In this document: positions 1 to 6,427 of the stretch, in pieces
How positions within the stretch are numbered: position 1 is the first letter of the stretch
Layout of the letters: the number at the start of each line of letters is the position of its first letter
Source: Chloroflexota bacterium
GTDB lineage: Bacteria > Chloroflexota > Dehalococcoidia > Lucifugimonadales > UBA3495
Direction of reading: 5' to 3'
Assembly (NCBI GenBank): GCA_009840165.1
Contig: VXOG01000054.1
Coordinates: forward strand, 1-53,491
Length of the DNA stretch: 53,491 bases
Notes under the pieces: generated by a model
The model's input: the letters and a program-made list of their open reading frames with translations, nothing else
The model's database searches: none
Told to the model about the DNA's origin: nothing
Made by a program: the position numbers and the translations under genes

Positions 1-755
1 GGCGTGAACCAGAAGAGAAAGGGTTCGCCCCCGGCGATGCGCTCGTTGTCGATTTGGTCGGTACTGATAAACGTTACACGCCGGCGGATTTCGTGAAATG
101 TGTCCATGTAGATCCGGTCATCAAAGTGGCTTTTCCTATGCGGCGGGGCAACGATGGTGAATTGCGCATAGAAATCGCGCAGCTCGTTGAATTTGGCCAG
201 AGAGTTCAGCATATCGGTGGAAAATTCGACTTCGAACAAATTGGCGGGCATATCGCGCCTGTTGAACCAGATGACGTCCACCGTCCTTGCCCTGCGTGTA
301 AAGTGCTGATACCCGAAATTGGGCAAACGCGTTGTGGCGCAGACTTCCCCCAGCCTTTGATTGCCAAAGGCGCGATTTCTATCTTGCGCCGGCACGTAGG
401 TTTTGTAATCCCGCGCGTTGCCGATTTCCAGCAATAACCCTTGATAGTGCCAGTGATTCCGTTCAACGACATTGGGAGGCGCATCCCCCTCTTCAGGCAG
501 GTTGTACTGCTCTTCAAACTTTGACGCGAACTCCCTCAGACAATACAGCCCAGGTTTGAGGACATGGATGTAGTCTGGCGTGTTCCGCACGATGCGGCGT
601 ATTGTCGCCTCCGGGGTTTTGGTCGCCCACTTCGTAGCGTCCCCACCTGGGGCAAGGAGATGGCGAGTCAGCTGCGATAGCGTAGCAATGCCACCCAGTT
701 GTTGGAGGGCGGATACTGCCTGCATCCATTGAGTTGCCCGGCCCTGAACCGTCAT
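1..755 (-). CDS. Wing-helix (HARE-HTH-like) plus PD-(D/E)XK-like nuclease-type protein, partial
   Basis: The frame is open from an ATG at 755 to the left edge of the window, so the C-terminus is missing; 251 codons are visible. Residues about 12-75 resemble a HARE-HTH/wing-helix module: a LGGIATLSQL helix, a TPEATIRRIVRNTP recognition-like helix and a closing VLKPGLYCL strand. Residues about 160-240 contain DVIWFNRR, then FEVEFSTDMLNSLAKFNELRDF and FTIVAPP, a D...ExE arrangement compatible with a PD-(D/E)XK nuclease core as in restriction-type proteins. The fold assignment is by eye. It lies just outside the left end of the transposon at 831. A restriction or defence role is plausible but is inference; a transcriptional regulator with a nuclease-derived domain is the alternative. 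Confidence 0.7.
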   Translation of the reverse strand, partial: MTVQGRATQWMQAVSALQQLGGIATLSQLTRHLLAPGGDATKWATKTPEATIRRIVRNTPDYIHVLKPGLYCLREFASKFEEQYNLPEEGDAPPNVVERNHWHYQGLLLEIGNARDYKTYVPAQDRNRAFGNQRLGEVCATTRLPNFGYQHFTRRARTVDVIWFNRRDMPANLFEVEFSTDMLNSLAKFNELRDFYAQFTIVAPPHRKSHFDDRIYMDTFHEIRRRVTFISTDQIDNERIAGGEPFLFWFT

Positions 756-822
756 ATTAGATCACCTGATCGTCAATGCGGCGCCACGTTACCACTACTA
801 ATTGTGTAGTGTCAACGATGGC

Positions 823-858
823 CTCGGCACGGTGCCGTTTCCTTCTGGGTGGTGGCCC
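823..858 (+). repeat. Left target duplication and left terminal inverted repeat
   Basis: CTCGGCAC at 823-830 is followed directly by the inverted repeat 831-858, which begins GGTGCCGTTTCC and ends GGGTGGTGGCCC. Mismatches to the right end are at repeat positions 1, 3, 5 and 13. Confidence 0.75.
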
Positions 859-904
859 AGGCACGGCGCAATCCAAGCCGCTAGAATTGAGGCCACACCA
901 ACAA

Positions 905-960
905 TGTTATACTGAACCCGTGGCAAAAATTAGGAGCTCCCGTCAAACGCAACCGGGAGC
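905..960 (+). promoter_or_regulatory. Extended -10 promoter and 5'-leader hairpin of the first micropeptide
   Basis: TGTTATACT at 905-913 fits an extended -10 (TGn plus a TATAAT-like hexamer). About 22 bases further on, GCTCCCG (936-942) pairs perfectly with CGGGAGC (954-960) across an 11-nt loop. A good Shine-Dalgarno (GGAGG, 979-983) and the ATG at 989 follow. The same order of promoter, hairpin, ribosome site and short ORF recurs at 4720-4793. Confidence 0.5.
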
Positions 961-988
961 CCCCACACAAACCGCCACGGAGGTCGCC

Positions 989-1078
989 ATGACTAGAACA
1001 ATCCAAGTGTGTTTGTTCCTTCTGCCCGCCGTTTACACCGCCATCGGCCTGGCCGGTATCGCGGTGGGCTCCCCGTGA
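989..1078 (+). CDS. 29-residue single-helix membrane micropeptide
   Basis: ATG at 989 has GGAGG 5 bases upstream and the frame ends at TGA 1076-1078. The product begins MTRTIQVCLFLLP and continues AVYTAIGLAGIAV: a charged N-terminus followed by one hydrophobic helix, with no room for another domain. The pattern MTR...(A)Y.AIG(L/I) recurs in the broken copy at 4793-4884 near the other end of the element. It is too short to assign by family. Possible roles are a membrane-active toxin, a regulator of a membrane protein or a leader peptide; all are inference. Evidence that it is a gene: promoter, hairpin, ribosome-binding site and the related second copy. Confidence 0.5.
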   Translation: MTRTIQVCLFLLPAVYTAIGLAGIAVGSP

Positions 1079-1168
1079 TGATCCCCGCCATTTTATCATG
1101 GGAGAATGCGCCGAAATTTATCCCATTGCGACTGTCGTCAGATTTTCCTTCAATCGCGCTCTGAGCAA

Positions 1169-2353
1169 TTAGAATCGTAGGCTACCCCGACCCGGGCGCG
1201 GCCCCGGCCGGCCTGCGCCGGCGTAAATGTGCGGCGTGGGTTGCCGTCTTGGTCTCGTGGTGCGCTCAGCGGCTTCGCGCTCCCGGTATGCCTCCACAGC
1301 GTCGCGGATTTCGGCCATCTGGGCGTCCTTGCCGGGGCGCGTGAATCCGAGAGTTTCGCCCAACGTGGGCTGCCTTTGGGCCGGTTTGGGCGTCGGCCTT
1401 GATTTATGGCGGGACAGGGTTTCGCTCCGCACCTGAGGCTCCGCGATCTCACCACCCATACGTACCACGTCCGCCCATTCCACCCACGGCACGTTCACGC
1501 CCGCAATTTCCCCCGGCCGTCTGCCGCCGAGGGCCTCATGGTCGCGGAAGAAGTTGTAGTCGATCACAAATCCGTCCAGGTAATCCTGCGCGGTGCGGCG
1601 GGTCTCCAGACCGCGTTGGGTCTTGGTGCGGTCGCGGAACGTGCCCTGTACGCGCTCCGATAGATTGTTGTTGAGCTTGGCGTAGATGCCCTCGGATACG
1701 ACGTGCTTGGTGCTTGGCAGCACCGTCTTGACCGCCTCCACGTAGGAGCCCAGTCCGTCGGTGGTGATGGTCTCCGGCGGCCTTTCGGCGGCGCGCAAGG
1801 CCTTGCGAAACACGGCACGAGCTTGATTGACGCCGCGCCCCCGGCTGATGCGTGACGCCAATAGATAGCGGGTCTTGGCGTCCATCACGTTCCAGTTCCA
1901 ATACTTTTTGCCGCCAACCTTGAGTTGCATCTCATCGGCAACCCAGTGCGGGCCGGTTTTCGCCTTGACCGGCTTGCCAGTGGCCGTGGCCTTTGTACCG
2001 TCGTCGCCGATCTGACCTTGCAGGAATGCGCGGGCCAACTTGGTGTAACCCTTGACCCAGTCGTGGACGCTGGCTTTGGACGGCTCTCCCATATCGTAGG
2101 CGTCTTGCATGAACTCGGCGGTCTGTTTGTAGGACGTGCCGGAGTAATAAACGTCGATCGCGGCCCCAACGTGTTCGGCGGGAACCTGTTTGCGCTTCGC
2201 CTTGCCGGTAACGGAGAACCGGCGTCGGCAGGTCTTGCATTGATAGCGTTGGACGCCCTTCCGCTTGCCGTAGCGGATGATTTTGCTCGGCCCGGGACAC
2301 CGTGGGCTGGGGCAGGTGAGGGTAAAAACTTGATTGTAGGAAAATTCGTCCAT
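1169..2353 (-). CDS. IS6/IS240-like DDE transposase with N-terminal zinc ribbon
   Basis: 394 residues from the ATG at 2353; an in-frame ATG at 2368 is also possible. The N-terminus has a zinc ribbon (CPSPRC...CKTCRRRF, about residues 14-46), then a helix-turn-helix (about 75-105). The catalytic core shows the DDE order: D in HWVADEMQLKVGGKKYW, D in ITTDGLGSYVEA, and E in NNNLSERVQGTFRDRTK, followed by YNFFRDHEALGGRRPGE, as in the IS6/IS240 group. It is longer than typical IS6 transposases (about 230-240 residues) because of the zinc ribbon and a basic, proline-rich tail of about 90 residues. No inverted repeats flank the gene closely; the candidate ends are at 831 and 4993. It probably mobilises the whole 4.2-kb element. 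Confidence 0.85.
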   Translation of the reverse strand: MDEFSYNQVFTLTCPSPRCPGPSKIIRYGKRKGVQRYQCKTCRRRFSVTGKAKRKQVPAEHVGAAIDVYYSGTSYKQTAEFMQDAYDMGEPSKASVHDWVKGYTKLARAFLQGQIGDDGTKATATGKPVKAKTGPHWVADEMQLKVGGKKYWNWNVMDAKTRYLLASRISRGRGVNQARAVFRKALRAAERPPETITTDGLGSYVEAVKTVLPSTKHVVSEGIYAKLNNNLSERVQGTFRDRTKTQRGLETRRTAQDYLDGFVIDYNFFRDHEALGGRRPGEIAGVNVPWVEWADVVRMGGEIAEPQVRSETLSRHKSRPTPKPAQRQPTLGETLGFTRPGKDAQMAEIRDAVEAYREREAAERTTRPRRQPTPHIYAGAGRPGPRPGRGSLRF

Positions 2354-2420
2354 GATGACGCGCTCCATCCGGGGTGTCGGCCTCTGACGAAGCCAGGGGA
2401 AAATAAACGGATGGGGCAGG

Positions 2421-2621
2421 TCAACCGCCGAGGATGAAATTCAGCCAGTCTCGGATTTCGGAGGCAATACCGACCGCCGTGCCAACCCACGGTAGCCACC
2501 TACGTGCAAATCGCCACACCGGCCGTATGAAACCGGCAAATCGAGTCCTCGCGTATCTTGACGAGCGGGCGGCTGCCCGTGTACAATTGTGGATAAGAGC
2601 CGTTACGAATTTCGTAATCAT
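2421..2621 (-). CDS. Small basic protein with C-terminal hydrophobic segment, unknown function
   Basis: 66 residues, starting MITKFVTALIHN. Residues 14-45 are rich in arginine and aromatic residues (RAAARSSRYARTRFAGF, RPVWRFARRW), followed by a hydrophobic stretch LPWVGTAVGIASEI and the end WLNFILGG. It has no recognised family. It is encoded 67 bases upstream of the transposase on the same strand, so the two may be co-transcribed, and a DNA-binding or membrane-associated accessory role is possible. A perfect 11-bp hairpin (2660-2688) lies in its presumed leader. The ribosome-binding site is weak (GAGACG). Confidence 0.4.
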   Translation of the reverse strand: MITKFVTALIHNCTRAAARSSRYARTRFAGFIRPVWRFARRWLPWVGTAVGIASEIRDWLNFILGG

Positions 2622-2659
2622 AATCGTCTCGCAACGTTGGATTTTGGAAAGGCTCGACC

Positions 2660-2688
2660 GAGGCCGGGAGGTGTGATCTCCCGGCCTC
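2660..2688 (-). other. 11-bp perfect hairpin in the leader of the small basic protein
   Basis: GAGGCCGGGAG (2660-2670) and CTCCCGGCCTC (2678-2688) are perfect complements around a 7-nt loop. On the minus strand it precedes the ATG at 2621 by about 40 bases, a position like that of the hairpins ahead of the micropeptides. No T-tract follows on the minus strand, so a leader structure is favoured over a terminator. Confidence 0.5.
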
Positions 2689-2690
2689 AC

Positions 2691-2930
2691 AGCTGTCTGT
2701 CCGATGTATCCACCTTAGGGGATCACTCACGAAGGTCGTCAACCCCTGCCTGTCATATGACACGGATGTGGCGTGTGGCCGATGTGTGGGCGACTGACAA
2801 CCCCGAAAGTGCGTTCTGAAACTTGGCGCAAATCGCCGGGAAAACGCGCCTGAATCCTCGCGCTGAACCCGGGGGATACCCGGAAAATCCCGGATAATTC
2901 CACCCGTCCCGTCTCTGTGATAAACTGCCC
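2691..2930. other. Intergenic region between divergent transcripts, with a 12-bp palindrome
   Basis: No credible gene is seen here. TGTCATATGACA at 2751-2762 is a perfect palindrome suitable as a dimeric regulator site. It lies between the leftward 2621/transposase unit and the rightward RNA/cargo unit, so it could serve as a shared operator. Function is inferred from position only. Confidence 0.3.
2916..2924 (+). promoter_or_regulatory. Extended -10-like element for the structured RNA
   Basis: TGT followed by GATAAA (4 of 6 matches to TATAAT). A start 6-8 bases downstream would place the 5' end of the RNA at about 2931, right at the outer stem of the predicted structure. No convincing -35 is seen. 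Confidence 0.35.
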
Positions 2931-2932
2931 CC

Positions 2933-3056
2933 GTCAGAGACGCGGGTAACCCCGTGGCAGTCCCTATGAAATGGTCAAAGCCGCTACCTAAGCGGATGAG
3001 CCTCTTATGGCTCCTCTTGCGGCGGCTTTTGCCATTCGGTTGCCAGCGTCTCTGAC
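2933..3056 (+). ncRNA. Candidate structured RNA with nested long-range stems
   Basis: Outer arms GTCAGAGACGC (2933-2943) and GCGTCTCTGAC (3046-3056) are perfect complements 102 bases apart. Directly inside, TGGCA (2955-2959) pairs with TGCCA (3041-3045). Further in, 2970-2984 (AATGGTCAAAGCCGC) pairs with 3022-3036 at 14 of 15 positions, counting one G-U. The apex holds GAGCC/GGCTC (2998-3002/3009-3013). The arms are collinear, so one rod-like fold of about 125 nt forms. It lies 90 bases before the next gene and could be a stand-alone small RNA or a leader. A 28-codon frame (2966-3052) lies inside, but it overlaps the stems and is not preferred. No known Rfam motif was recognised. Confidence 0.45.
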
Positions 3057-3146
3057 AAGCGCCCATCCGACGCGCAAGGGGGGCTGCCACCCGTGCAGCA
3101 GTTGCACGCTGTCGCCAGCACCTCCACATGACCGGGAGGTGCCAGA

Positions 3147-3914
3147 GTGCAAGATCAATTCGTCGGTGATATTGGCGACTTCGCCAAATTCAGCCTACTC
3201 CGCTGGTTGTGCGGACTGACCGACCTCAATAGACCCGAGCCCAAGCTGAAGCTCGGCGTGGTCTGGTATTACAACAACCATCCTCGCAAGGGCGGCAATC
3301 ACACCTGCTATCCCGCTTGTCGAGATGCCGACCCCGAGCTCTACGACACCTTGCAAGGTCTGTTGTGTCCCAGCCGGCGAAATGTCCGTTGTTTGCAGAA
3401 GTCCGGCGTGCTGCCCGAAGGCACCAGATTCTTCCGCGAGGAAATGACGTACCCACCACAGAAGCCCCAACGTGAGGCGTGGCTGGGCCGCGCAGTTGAG
3501 AAGATGCAGAAAGACAGGTTGGTGTACCTCGACCCCGACACCGGCCTGGCCCCAGAGAGTATGAAGGATAAAGCGCACACGAAAGAAGGTTCTCACTACG
3601 CTTACAAGGCTGACGTGGCCAAATTCTGGAAGCAGGGCCACAGCCTCGTGATCTATCAGGACGCAACGCAAGGTGGTAATAACAAGCCTGAAACCATACA
3701 TCGAAAAATGGAGGAAATCCGGGCGGCGACGGACAACACAGCCGATGTGGTCGCGCTTCGATGGAATATGGCTGGCTCGGGGCGAGTATTCCTCGTCGCA
3801 GCTCAGCAAAAGCATCGGGATGCCCTTCTGAATCGAATTGATCGGTTGCCCAGCAGCATGAAGGCTGGTTGCTTCGAGCGCGTCCTCCTAATGACGCAAA
3901 CAGGGGGTGCCTAA
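3147..3914 (+). CDS. Conserved hypothetical protein of the 'GDxxDxxKxxLLR...LDPDxGL' type
   Basis: 255 residues from a GTG at 3147, with GGGAGGTG 6-13 bases upstream. Recognisable conserved blocks are QFVGDIGDFAKFSLLRWL at the N-terminus, GVVWYYNNH, LVYLDPDTGLAP near residue 130, and HSLVIYQDATQG around 165. From memory, this combination defines a family of uncharacterised bacterial and phage proteins starting with similar FGDxxDYxKYxLLR segments; I cannot name an established domain. The LDPDxGL motif could be an active-site loop of a nuclease or methyltransferase-like fold, but that is speculation. It is the largest cargo gene of the transposon and abuts the lipoprotein gene without a gap (TAA then ATG), so the two are likely one transcript. 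Confidence 0.65.
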   Translation: MQDQFVGDIGDFAKFSLLRWLCGLTDLNRPEPKLKLGVVWYYNNHPRKGGNHTCYPACRDADPELYDTLQGLLCPSRRNVRCLQKSGVLPEGTRFFREEMTYPPQKPQREAWLGRAVEKMQKDRLVYLDPDTGLAPESMKDKAHTKEGSHYAYKADVAKFWKQGHSLVIYQDATQGGNNKPETIHRKMEEIRAATDNTADVVALRWNMAGSGRVFLVAAQQKHRDALLNRIDRLPSSMKAGCFERVLLMTQTGGA

Positions 3915-4706
3915 ATGATGACCAAACTCGCCGTCGTGGCCCTCCTTGCCTTCGTCGCGCTCTTGCTCGTGGCGTGCTCCGGCGACAGCCATTTCGTCCC
4001 CGGGGTCTCGCCCACTGTTACGCCCACGTACAACCCTGAGGGCACGCCCAGTATGCCCGTTGTGATCACATCCGACCTGCCAGAAGGCTGGCGCTGGCAA
4101 TTCAGCCGGGGGTTCCCAATTCCCGACAGGGATGTGTGGCTACTACTCGACGATGACTCTGGAATCGTTGGGGCGGTGGGCAACGCCGGCGACAACTGCT
4201 GGATCGTGCTAGGGGATGACCTGCCGGGGAGGCCGCCATGCTACGACCGAGATGAAGTTGGGCGATACGCAATTGAGATGTTGATCACCAATGCGGAACC
4301 AGCACCGGCACCGGCTTCGGCTGTCGAGCCAAAAACGCTCTTAGGTGTGTTCAGGGCCGCGTTCACGCCAGATGTCGCCGAGGAGCATCAGGTCCACCAG
4401 GTTGATGACGGGTCTTTTGTCTGGGCGGCTTCGGTGCATGGGAGCGGCCTCTACCAGATAACCGAATGTCCGCCGGACGAAATCGCGCCATCGGGCGGCA
4501 TGTGCGTTCGAGGTCAATTGTCGAATACGACCAAGTACACGATGACGGGCGTCCAGGCCGTGTGCGATGGAAACGGCGATGAGAAAACTCCTCCGATGCA
4601 AGTATCAAATTCAATGCAACCCGGGGCTTCGGCGAGTTGGGTCTGGGTGCGCTTCCCAATCGTCGAGCCGTATTCCTGCGAGATCACGTGGACGGCCAGC
4701 CAGTAA
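3915..4706 (+). CDS. Secreted lipoprotein, unknown function
   Basis: 263 residues. The N-terminus is a signal peptide with lipobox LVAC (Cys21), so the protein should be lipid-anchored outside the cytoplasmic membrane. A short threonine/proline linker (SPTVTPTYNPEGTPS) leads into a globular part with several cysteines (DNCW, PPCY, TECPP, GGMCVRG, AVCDG, YSCE), likely disulfide-bonded. A tandem ATG ATG start directly follows the stop of the preceding gene. Residues 190-263 look like a beta-sandwich of the kind that stabilises extracellular domains. No enzymatic motif was recognised. Confidence 0.65.
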   Translation: MMTKLAVVALLAFVALLLVACSGDSHFVPGVSPTVTPTYNPEGTPSMPVVITSDLPEGWRWQFSRGFPIPDRDVWLLLDDDSGIVGAVGNAGDNCWIVLGDDLPGRPPCYDRDEVGRYAIEMLITNAEPAPAPASAVEPKTLLGVFRAAFTPDVAEEHQVHQVDDGSFVWAASVHGSGLYQITECPPDEIAPSGGMCVRGQLSNTTKYTMTGVQAVCDGNGDEKTPPMQVSNSMQPGASASWVWVRFPIVEPYSCEITWTASQ

Positions 4707-4719
4707 TGCAGGCTGTCTT

Positions 4720-4774
4720 TGCTATAATAAAATCACACTGTATAGAGGTGCGGCCCTGGAACCAACAGGGCCGC
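4720..4774 (+). promoter_or_regulatory. Extended -10 promoter and 5'-leader hairpin of the second micropeptide
   Basis: TGCTATAAT (4720-4728) is a near-ideal extended -10. GCGGCCCT (4750-4757) pairs with AGGGCCGC (4767-4774) around a 9-nt loop, then AGGAGA and the ATG at 4793 follow. It mirrors the arrangement at 905-989. Confidence 0.55.
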
Positions 4775-4792
4775 GCTAGGAGAAGAATCACC

Positions 4793-4884
4793 ATGACCCG
4801 CCACGGCGGGTTGGGGCAGCGCTGTTTGTCCTCATCATTGCCTACATCGCCATTGGGATTTCGGCGGGAGGACAACTCCCGTAG
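4793..4884 (+). pseudogene. Second membrane micropeptide, apparently frameshifted
   Basis: The ATG at 4793 has a good ribosome site (AGGAGA), but its own frame gives a polar 31-residue peptide. The frame entered at 4810 encodes VGAALFVLIIAYIAIG then ISAGGQLP and stops at 4882-4884. Adding one base before 4810, in a run of G, gives a 30-residue product starting MTRHGG and continuing into the hydrophobic helix. That product parallels the intact peptide at 989-1078 (MTR start, Y.AIG core, similar length). I therefore read it as a second copy with a one-base deletion, or an assembly error. Confidence 0.45.
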
Positions 4885-4965
4885 GTGACTCGGGAGAGAG
4901 GGTAGATTATCGGCCACGGCGGCTGTAATTGTGCTGGGTGGGGTATGCGTCCTCAGCACGAGTCG

Positions 4966-5001
4966 GGGCCACCACCCAGAGGGAAACGCCGCTCTCGGCA
5001 C
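4966..5001 (-). repeat. Right terminal inverted repeat and right target duplication
   Basis: The inverted repeat occupies 4966-4993 and is followed directly by CTCGGCAC at 4994-5001. Read on the minus strand it begins AGCGGCGTTTCCC and ends GGGTGGTGGCCC. Confidence 0.75.
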
Positions 5002-5066
5002 TTATGAGGTGATTTCGCTATCGTCGGTGAGGGTTCCGTGGCGAAGACCACGGGTAGGGATTTGGG

Positions 5067-5920
5067 CTAGGGGGCGCGGGCGGGGTTGCTGCGTTTTCGC
5101 AAGAGGGGGTTGGTCCAGTAGATGCGGTTGATGTCGATGGGATTGCGGGGGTGTTCAATGTTCCGGCCGGTCAGGTACTCGGCGTAGCGCGCCAGAAAGT
5201 CCTCCAGCTGATCGGGGTCGCGGATGAGGTACTCCATGGTCGGACTGCAACGGGCGGCGGCTTCGAGCTGGTCTGCATCCTCAAGTACGTTGCCTTCGCG
5301 GTCGTGGAGGCGGTCTTCGCAGACGCAGGGGAAGGGATCGTCCCGGTAGTACACCGGGCCGTGCTTGCTGAATTCGATGAGTTGCGTACGGCGTCGGGCT
5401 GCCAGTTCTTCAGGGGTCGGCTCGGGTTCGGGCTCGGCAGCTTCCTGAGACTCGGCATCCTCGGGGAGGTAGTCGAAGCCGCGCTGGAGGAGTTCTTTGG
5501 CGGCGGAGAGGCGGTGGCAGGGTAACCCGCCCTGCATGGCGTCGATAAGGAACTGGACGAGGACGTAGCCATCGTAGGTTTCCTCGCGGACGATCTGGGC
5601 CGGTTCGGCGCGGATGGAGTGGGTTGCGCTTTGGGATTCGGCTTCGGCTTGCCGCTGAGCTTGAGCCTGAGCCTGAGGCTGGGAGCGAGAATCGCGGTTG
5701 GGTGCGCGCTGGCGCTGGGCGGCGGCGCGCTGGTTGGCACGGGTGCGGTCGATGGCAGCCTGGGCCTGGTCGAAGCCGAGTTTGACGAGGAGTCGAGCAG
5801 GGTCGATGCGGTGGCAGGGTAGGAAGTCGGTAGGTCGCCGTCCACGGCGGAAAGGAGGAAGCGGACGATGAGATGGCCGTCCTGGGTTTCCTGGGCGATG
5901 ATGTCGGCGAGGTTGGACAT
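5067..5920 (-). pseudogene. Protein with duplicated 'LPCHR' module, broken by a one-base frameshift
   Basis: From the ATG at 5920 the frame encodes MSNLADIIAQETQDGHL, then IVRFLLSAVDGDLPTSYP and loses homology. Restoring one C to the CCC run (5817-5819, GGG on the plus strand) continues it as CHRIDPARLLVKLGFDQA and on to the stop at 5067. The repaired product of about 284 residues holds two copies of one module: DGHLIVRFLLSAVDGDLP...PCHRIDPARLLVKLGFD and DGYVLVQFLIDAMQGGLPCHRLSAAKELLQRGFD. They are separated by a Gln/Ala-rich linker and followed by an acidic region. The module recalls uncharacterised Chloroflexota accessory proteins; function is unknown. Either the gene is decaying or the base is missing from the assembly. 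Confidence 0.6.
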
Positions 5921-6077
5921 ATATTCTATTTTATGGGGGGGGTGGTGAGGTGCGTAAACGGGGGATTGTCACTCACTGCGACGACGGTACGGTGCGTCGT
6001 TCCGCTGGGGCGACGCTCTGACTCTGGAGCCGGCACTGCCCGGTTTCGCTTGCCCGATGGACCGTATTTTTTGGCTA

Positions 6078-6272: not shown

Positions 6273-6295
6273 CGGCGATTCTCCTCACTAACGCT

Positions 6296-6387
6296 CTGGA
6301 TTCCCGCGAAAGCGGGAATGACGTGTAGGGCGGGAATGACGGTGTAGAGTGCTAATGACGGCCCTTCGACAAGCTCAGGGTGAGCGG
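6296..6387. repeat. Two interspersed palindromic repeats in the gap before aroC's stop
   Basis: 6296-6322 is a copy of the CTGGATTCCCGC(gaaa)GCGGGAATGAC repeat, followed by degenerate GCGGGAATGACG tails. 6365-6387 carries a second family (TTCGACAAGCTCAGGGTGAG). A relative of the latter lies inside a gene at 34777-34799. Confidence 0.8.
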
Positions 6388-6427
6388 AATCGATGGGTGT
6401 AGGTGGGGAAAGCTGTGGGGGATCGGG

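Follow-up and report, generated by a model that had tools for sequence, protein, structure and literature searches.

A passenger-carrying zinc-ribbon relative of IS6 and its leader-linked cargo in a Chloroflexota bacterium

Can a relative of the insertion sequence (IS) IS6 carry passenger genes behind a control element of their own, and from where would such a cargo be drawn? This question is raised by the first 5 kb of contig VXOG01000054.1 (assembly GCA_009840165.1) of a Chloroflexota bacterium of the class Dehalococcoidia. The whole stretch of 53,491 nucleotides that was analyzed is called the window here. A complete transposon of 4163 bp (approximately 4.2 kb) is present at positions 831-4993, which encodes a DDE transposase with a zinc ribbon, a conserved structured RNA, a protein of the LDPDxGL type and a lipoprotein (Table 1). 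The boundaries of the element, its duplication, an unoccupied site, a family of similar elements, the covariation of the RNA and its presence in both IS6-like and IS1595 transposons were observed directly, and together they point to a passenger-carrying transposon whose cargo probably belongs to a pool shared with unrelated transposons.

The two 28-bp ends of the element are inverted repeats that are identical at 24 of 28 positions, while in 40 sequences obtained by dinucleotide shuffling of positions 700-5200, inverted 28-bp pairs matched at 18-21 of 28 positions at best. The octamer CTCGGCAC occurs only twice in the entire window, directly outside both ends, and scanning for duplications gave a match at a length of 8, and none at 7 or 9. 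In G009, a genome of the same genus, the left flank is 83% identical over window positions 37-822 and the right flank 80% identical over 5003-5973, and both are located approximately 0.2 kb apart. The joined window flanks with a single octamer align across this site, from which the 4.2-kb element is missing, and it represents an unoccupied site. In another genome, G006, the left flank was matched, yet no second unoccupied site was found. An earlier note, written from the sequence alone, had described a complete 4.2-kb transposon with a clean 8-bp duplication and had proposed to look for empty sites; the description was confirmed and such a site was found, though a 218-bp insert adjoins it in G009. 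The structured RNA (positions 2925-3065), the LDPDxGL gene and the lipoprotein gene that it had placed inside the element are all present there. Non-transposition genes are located between the ends and inside one duplication, and the element is as a kind a transporter IS (tIS), which is already known.

The transposase contains a DDE_Tnp_IS240 domain (Pfam, E 1.6e-20), preceded by an N-terminal zinc ribbon at residues 22-52 (IS1_IS1595_Zn, 34.9 bits versus a cut-off of 28), an arrangement that is typical for zinc-finger IS6-like enzymes. The conserved residues D145, D204 and E238 likely constitute the catalytic triad. The IS6 model matches residues 58-275 with 109.5 bits, and because this is below its cut-off of 125, the transposase does not belong to IS6 in the strict sense. 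Membership in the IS1 family was rejected (46.8 bits versus a cut-off of 100). The 8-bp target duplication of the IS6 family is shared by the window element and the set of 53 elements described below, and position 7 is G at both ends; the GG expected at both tips is found only at the left end, since the right tip reads AG, with A as its first base and not G as previously noted. In its own genome (3.76 Mb, 115 contigs), the transposase is represented by one full copy and one distant partial match, and the left end by one copy, in agreement with the single-copy, passenger-carrying IS6 relative that had been proposed. Sequence searches against solved structures with the transposase and the LDPDxGL protein gave nothing useful.

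The transposase has relatives in 11 of the 60 related genomes searched and, at E up to 1e-30, in 34 of the 393 genomes from the class, the own genome being counted in both, as well as at 61 loci of a named collection that are mostly from Chloroflexota with some archaea. For 103 transposase loci, including the window, we searched for 20-bp inverted ends with at least 13 matching positions, GGT or GGC at one tip or both, and an exact 8-bp repeat outside. This was found at 58 loci, corresponding to 53 distinct elements, window included, after removal of five duplicates, while only 1-6 of 103 passed in eight offset controls, in which the duplication was read 3 to 23 bases off. The remaining 45 loci include truncated, broken and contig-edge copies, and duplicates among them are still counted. 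When the repeat was lengthened by one base, 12 and 15 of the 53 elements matched, which is the level expected by chance; therefore, the duplication of this family is 8 bp long. Thus, the search for like ends around like transposases, also proposed in the earlier note, was successful, and the element is not the lone form for which it had been taken. At the top-scoring other transposase among the 60 related genomes (L024/L036), neither ends nor duplication were found.

The elements are 837-6592 bp long with a median of 1858 bp; 21 of 53 have a length of at least 2 kb and eight of at least 3 kb. Among their 106 ends, G is present at position 1 in 98, at position 2 in 99 and at position 7 in 50 cases. 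The IS6 model recognizes all 52 transposases that were scanned (window included, L191 left out) with E up to 0.001, and the zinc model 47 of them. In the transposase tree, the window is placed in a clade of five rows with L045, L038, L037 and L039 (support 100/99), all of which are cargo elements. Six members (L059, L067, L070, L071, L072 and L073) have unlike tips, with CTT or CCTTTT versus GGTTC, and keep exact 8-bp duplications.

Carrying cargo seems to be usual in these zinc-ribbon relatives of IS6. A same-strand open reading frame (ORF) of at least 90 amino acids upstream of the transposase is present in 33 of 53 elements, and a same-strand ORF with a predicted membrane segment likewise in 33 of 53, both counts being based on mechanically called ORFs; those upstream in the window itself are probably not genuine. 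With looser criteria, 36 elements have an upstream ORF on the same strand, and in 24 of these it ends within 30 bp of the transposase start, with many overlaps. A simple hydropathy rule predicts a membrane segment in 40 of the 61 cargo ORFs on the same strand versus 109 of 422 flank ORFs of 90-350 amino acids, although the rows are not independent. Twenty cargo proteins were scanned with Pfam, plus PADLOC. This revealed DNA methyltransferases in L037, L038 and L039, HNH or endonuclease VII proteins in L037 and L038, DUF805 membrane proteins in L041 and L045, a PIN domain in L091, an AbiU2-like HEPN protein in L052 and a type I-like methyltransferase with its specificity partner in the archaeal L075. 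Of the four elements nearest to the window, three (L037, L038, L039) carry DNA methyltransferase genes and one (L045) a DUF805 gene. L075 (6101-12692) is a 6.6-kb member from Methanomethyliaceae, with ends identical over 28 bp and three further ORFs beside its type I restriction-modification-like pair. The methyltransferase genes of L037 and L039 (L026 9664-11176 and L027 10521-12034), from two genomes, consist of two overlapping frames that are split at a similar C-rich place, which could equally well reflect a real break, slippage or an assembly error.

In three same-genome pairs of elements (L177/L178, L181/L183 and L174/L188), the transposase halves share 84-88% DNA identity, while the passengers have no mutual blast match; the similarity begins at or near the transposase start. 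Because similar transposase halves are combined with unlike passengers, passengers are exchanged between similar transposases in this family.

Upstream of the LDPDxGL gene, the stretch 2925-3065 folds far better than shuffled sequences (z -6.2). Related DNA was seen in two genomes of the same genus, and a free alignment of the three sequences revealed changes on both sides in 12 of 51 predicted pairs. A first covariance model yielded 13 matches in 8 of 197 genomes of the order, and a second model, built from these 13, yielded 35 matches in 15 of 39 related genomes (E up to 0.01); a class-wide search with strict filters gave matches in 3 of 393 genomes. Covariation was determined for 30 of the 35 copies, leaving out four without a fetched locus and L247. 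In this alignment, which was fitted to the covariance model and hence leans towards it, both sides vary in 48 of 51 pairs, pairing is kept in 88.0% of 1363 cells, and the covariation score amounts to 0.526, compared with 0.176 after shuffling and at most 0.106 after sliding. A pseudoknot between strands of the CCUCUUGC and GCAAGGGGG type, which is not part of the model, provides 11-16 contiguous pairs in all 30 copies, and the mean of 12.5 exceeds the values obtained after swapping rows (9.1) or shuffling the partners (7.3, at most 8.0).

The tail of the RNA is Shine-Dalgarno-like in 29 of 30 copies, and such a run followed by AUG, GUG or UUG is present at the 3' end in 25 of 30, a count obtained with a generous pattern and without control. 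In seven copies (L228, L234, L237, L241, L243, L246 and L252), the start codon at the RNA end opens a lipoprotein- or membrane-type ORF. The RNA has the features of a regulatory leader, i.e., a conserved covarying fold upstream of coding genes and a paired Shine-Dalgarno-like strand. A search of Rfam (E up to 1) gave no match at the RNA in the window or in its relatives L219 and L220, with one sub-threshold match elsewhere in positions 700-5200, and literature listings by title and start of abstract, which are weak evidence of absence, contained nothing on the element or the RNA. The RNA family by itself may be new.

Eight of the 35 RNA copies are located inside delimited transposons: two are IS6-like (the window element and its sister L045), five belong to IS1595 and one, which is less sure, to IS5. 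In L045, the RNA copy ends at the start of the DUF805 gene; the other 51 IS6-like elements gave no RNA match at E up to 2. The five IS1595 transposons (L256, L257 (window's own genome), L258, L259 and L198) are bounded by ends that agree at 16-18 of 18 positions and by exact duplications of 8 or 9 bp. The first four encode transposases that attain the IS1595 cut-off of NCBIfam, and the L198 transposase shares 58% identity with one of these. An 8/9-bp end scan around the RNA copies found 5 of 35, versus 0-1 of 35 in offset controls; the imperfect ends of the window element and L045 are below its cut-off. The probable IS5 element, L260, has a CTAG duplication and ends matching at 16 of 18 positions. 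Its transposase piece stays below the cut-off (103.7 versus 110 bits), and scans for 4-bp duplications detected ends matching at 15-17 of 18 positions at L262, L263 and L264 as well, where no IS5 transposase is known; thus, this case is weaker than those with 8 or 9 bp. In total, 15 of 35 RNA copies have, at a distance of up to 4 kb, a transposase that belongs to one of four kinds (IS6-like, IS1595, IS5 and IS1182-like), a number that leans upward for these kinds and misses others, as the queries were taken from the same loci. No such transposase was present at 15 other loci, a weak control in which the loci are smaller.

The LDPDxGL gene was found in 10 copies in the 60 genomes, at 10 viral loci and at three plasmid loci. 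The leader precedes four of the 10 genomic copies by 51 to 307 nt (window, G001:C43, G000:C115 and G009:C2); no leader was found at the viral and plasmid copies. Of these, G009:C2 is carried by L198 (IS1595), and next to G000:C115, at the edge of a contig, there is an IS1595-type transposase. A further LDPDxGL gene close to a transposase, in G025, was rejected as a second case, because the genes are outside the apparent ends of that element. Unrelated transposons carry one kind of leader-linked cargo, as is evident from the IS6-like and IS1595 cases. As IS1595, and probably IS5, transposons of the same genus contain a like leader and cargo gene, they appear to draw on one leader-linked cargo pool. 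At L227, a gene resembling DNA methyltransferases, with matches that stay under the curated cut-offs, lies back to back with a leader copy, which is reminiscent of the cargo of L037-L039. The homologue of the window lipoprotein, present in one other genome (G007) among the 60 searched, is encoded approximately 1.6 kb from an ORF that by appearance resembles an IS1595 transposase (L221, 5709-6734 and 8319-9734).

We assign a probability of roughly 0.75 to the view that the window element is a passenger-carrying zinc-ribbon IS6-like transposon with leader-linked cargo from a pool common to unrelated transposons. The DDE transposase would act on the two 28-bp ends and insert the entire 4.2 kb, leaving the 8-bp target duplication, probably via replicative cointegrate formation and subsequent homologous (RecA-type) resolution, by analogy with IS6. 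In the RNA, the anti-Shine-Dalgarno-like strand CCUCUUGC is predicted to pair with the Shine-Dalgarno-like strand GCAAGGGGG in the pseudoknot; translation of the cargo would thereby be restricted, with the leader acting as a gate, until some signal opened the RNA. The LDPDxGL and lipoprotein genes would follow this leader as a cargo unit with a possible surface or nucleic-acid role. We lean slightly towards the wider proposal that a new pseudoknotted leader RNA family masks the Shine-Dalgarno sequence of small surface-protein genes, accompanies LDPDxGL genes and constitutes a shared mobile control cassette, which was taken up by IS6-like, IS1595 and probably IS5 transposons in one genus, while the passengers of IS6-like elements are swapped as cassettes beside a conserved transposase.

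Several observations weigh against these proposals. The window element is present as a single copy and the closest transposase found in the 60 related genomes is 53% identical, so that recent activity is at best possible; its right tip lacks the GG of IS6, and the unoccupied site in G009 contains an unrelated 218-bp insert a few bases away. Of the 35 RNA matches, 23 score below 60 bits, the copy in L045 reaches a modest 32.8 bits, for 27 no enclosing transposon has been delimited, and around 20 the nearest 4 kb contain none of the four kinds of transposase, although some contigs end close by, so that the leader also occurs without them. The leader is restricted to 2 of 53 IS6-like elements, and 6 of 10 LDPDxGL copies lack it, two of these in the same genus (G003 and G000:C84). 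In the window, the LDPDxGL gene starts 51 nt past the RNA end and has its own GGAGG, so that this start may escape occlusion; control might instead be exerted through the short 12-codon frame that starts with GTG.

The alternative that survives best, and that we consider doubtful, concerns the function of the cargo: the LDPDxGL gene could be a defense or modification gene, encoding a methyltransferase-like enzyme that replaces the DNA methyltransferase cargo found in three of the four nearest elements. The predicted structure is a fairly confident alpha/beta fold (predicted local distance difference test (pLDDT) 82, predicted template modeling score (pTM) 0.86) with weak methyltransferase-type matches among the best (best E 6.7e-3, TM 0.37), and on an Ensifer plasmid a homologue is located between two genes annotated as GIY-YIG nucleases (L212, 6001-6720). 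However, fold searches of PDB and viral structures gave no match with E up to 0.001, any SAM-binding motif in the protein would be hypothetical, and profile searches at E up to 1 left it without a match in Pfam, NCBIfam and PADLOC, while PHROGs gave a single match at chance level. A defense annotation of the window cargo was rejected, as PADLOC contained nothing and PHROGs and Pfam gave chance-level matches only. At the 10 viral LDPDxGL loci no transposase relative was confirmed, and no LDPDxGL gene was found in phage records. By eye, a GIY-YIG-like gene is seen further on at the leader loci L230 and L234, the one at L230 without NCBIfam match.

It is unlikely that the RNA acts as a small RNA in its own right, or as an RNA component of the transposition machinery, and precedes the cargo by chance instead of serving as a cis leader. 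Its strong fold on its own, the distance of 51 to 307 nt to the next large gene in the window, L255 and L250, and the 15 copies with a transposase nearby would agree with such a role, but the Shine-Dalgarno-like run and start codon at the RNA end fit a leader, and most copies lack a transposase of these kinds in their vicinity, just as 51 of 53 IS6-like elements lack the RNA. Even less probable is an ordinary IS-like element that has trapped host DNA between its ends by chance, with a leader and genes that have no role for the element. The different passengers of similar transposases, the lack of a known function for most of them, the broken methyltransferase frames in L037 and L039 and the rarity of the leader among IS6-like elements are in line with this possibility; the close, often overlapping position of upstream ORFs relative to the transposase start (mechanical ORFs), the enrichment of membrane segments in cargo ORFs (rows not independent) and the recurrence of the leader in IS1595 transposons argue against it. 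Finally, a chance pairing of inverted ends and octamer without any mobile element, as the imperfect ends and single copy might hint, is rejected by the unoccupied site in G009, the dinucleotide shuffles and the end scan with its like structures around homologous transposases, and its probability is negligible.

Table 1. Features of the transposon and its immediate borders in the window
Feature	Position	Strand	Basis
Left copy of the 8-bp target duplication, CTCGGCAC	823..830	.	Sequence; 2 copies in whole window
Left terminal inverted repeat, tip GGTGCCGTTTCC	831..858	+	24/28 versus right end; resembles ends of 53 elements
Hydrophobic micropeptide ORF, 29 aa, behind weak hairpin at ~933-963 (z -1.4)	989..1078	+	Sequence, folding
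Zinc-ribbon IS6-like DDE transposase, 399 aa, second possible start 2353	1169..2368	-	Profile matches; conserved D145, D204, E238
Small ORF upstream of transposase, 89 aa or shorter from inner ATG, may not be a gene	2421..2690	-	ORF list; no profile match
Conserved structured leader RNA, pseudoknot over Shine-Dalgarno-like strand	2929..3096	+	Folding, covariance models, covariation
Possible 12-codon leader ORF (GTG..TGA) after paired GGGGGG	3093..3131	+	Read from sequence; inference
LDPDxGL cargo protein, 255 aa	3147..3914	+	ORF; predicted alpha/beta fold
Cargo lipoprotein, 263 aa; LVAC lipobox in signal peptide (by eye)	3915..4706	+	ORF; homologue in G007
Strong hairpin before out-of-frame micropeptide relative	4747..4777	+	z -4.1 for 4735-4800
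Right terminal inverted repeat, tip AGCGGCGTTTCC, first base A	4966..4993	-	Inverted-end comparison
Right copy of the 8-bp target duplication, CTCGGCAC	4994..5001	.	Sequence and inverted-end scan

Besides the transposase and the main cargo, the element contains several small features. The earlier note listed micropeptides; the frame at 989-1078 is open, whereas a similar stretch close to 4793 is, by eye, not in frame, and no homologue of the former above chance was found among the loci fetched up to then. The ORF at 2421-2690 has no match in Pfam, NCBIfam or PADLOC and is weakly hydrophobic (best 19-residue mean 0.98), and it occupies the place of the membrane-type ORF in many relatives. The 218-bp insert at the G009 site (L152, G009:C101, reverse strand; L139 ~1284-1505) has inverted ends TACGCGTACCCAGTTTG and an apparent duplication of ~9 bp (by eye), and this spot near the site of the window element seems to have been struck twice independently. 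The gene region of the right flank (5060-5973) has many partial copies in genomes of the same genus, including eight places in G007; several of the copies are located where a contig begins, and the region looks like a repeated family. The right flank had matches in 28 of 40 genomes, many of which matched a short stretch at 6295-6389 that is probably a dispersed REP-like repeat.

With IS26 and IS6 proper the window element shares the IS240-type DDE domain, the 8-bp duplication and G at position 7 of both ends; those elements differ by their length of ~0.8 kb, their single gene and their GG tips, and the window transposase scores below the IS6 cut-off. Some IS1595-family transposons carry passengers. 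Those in the genus of the window contain the same leader RNA together with lipoprotein, membrane or LDPDxGL genes, but their transposase family is unrelated. A cargo module that is common to unrelated transposases would, if true, imply that selection acts on cargo and leader and not on one element. Translational riboswitches and leader RNAs that sequester the Shine-Dalgarno sequence are a known class, and the window RNA resembles them by its conserved fold upstream of genes and its paired Shine-Dalgarno-like strand; different from known riboswitches, it has no counterpart in Rfam. The leader offers a handle on the purpose of some of the cargo, because the signal that opens the pseudoknot would tell when the passenger is made, and an RNA without Rfam match is open to direct testing in reporters.

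A zinc-ribbon transposase or longer ends, which the earlier note considered unusual, are not so in themselves, as zinc-finger IS6 clades and ISDsp3 illustrate in the available parts of two reports (PMC7986276, PMC6807381). Clades h/i (VII/VIII), mainly from Clostridia, share with the window element the N-terminal zinc-finger extension, the IS6-like DDE domain and the 8-bp duplication, but are described in these parts with lengths of 1226-1761 bp and without a named passenger. Harmer and Hall proposed to separate long zinc-finger members from IS6/IS26 (PMC6807381), and the score of the window transposase below the strict IS6 cut-off is in line with this proposal, as far as it is set out in the available part. 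ISDsp3 of Dehalococcoides sp. BAV1, which is 1456 bp long with ends matching at 28 of 36 positions (PMC6807381), is the only passenger-bearing IS6 member named in the available part of PMC7986276. Its host likely belongs to the same class as that of the window, judging from the names of relatives. ISDsp3 resembles the window element by long inverted ends, an 8-bp duplication and a passenger gene (PMC6807381, PMC7986276), but, compared by these partial descriptions and not by sequence, it has a single hypothetical passenger and a transposase of 319 amino acids that lacks an intact zinc finger, whereas the window element is 4163 bp long and combines a zinc ribbon with leader-linked cargo. While IS6-type elements are known as minimal and mostly single-gene, the zinc-ribbon relatives described here form a large family, whose cargo includes methyltransferase, nuclease and type I restriction-modification-like genes. 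Thus, measured against what the available parts of these sources report, the element family, its cargo and its leader go beyond ISDsp3 as the single passenger-bearing member of IS6.

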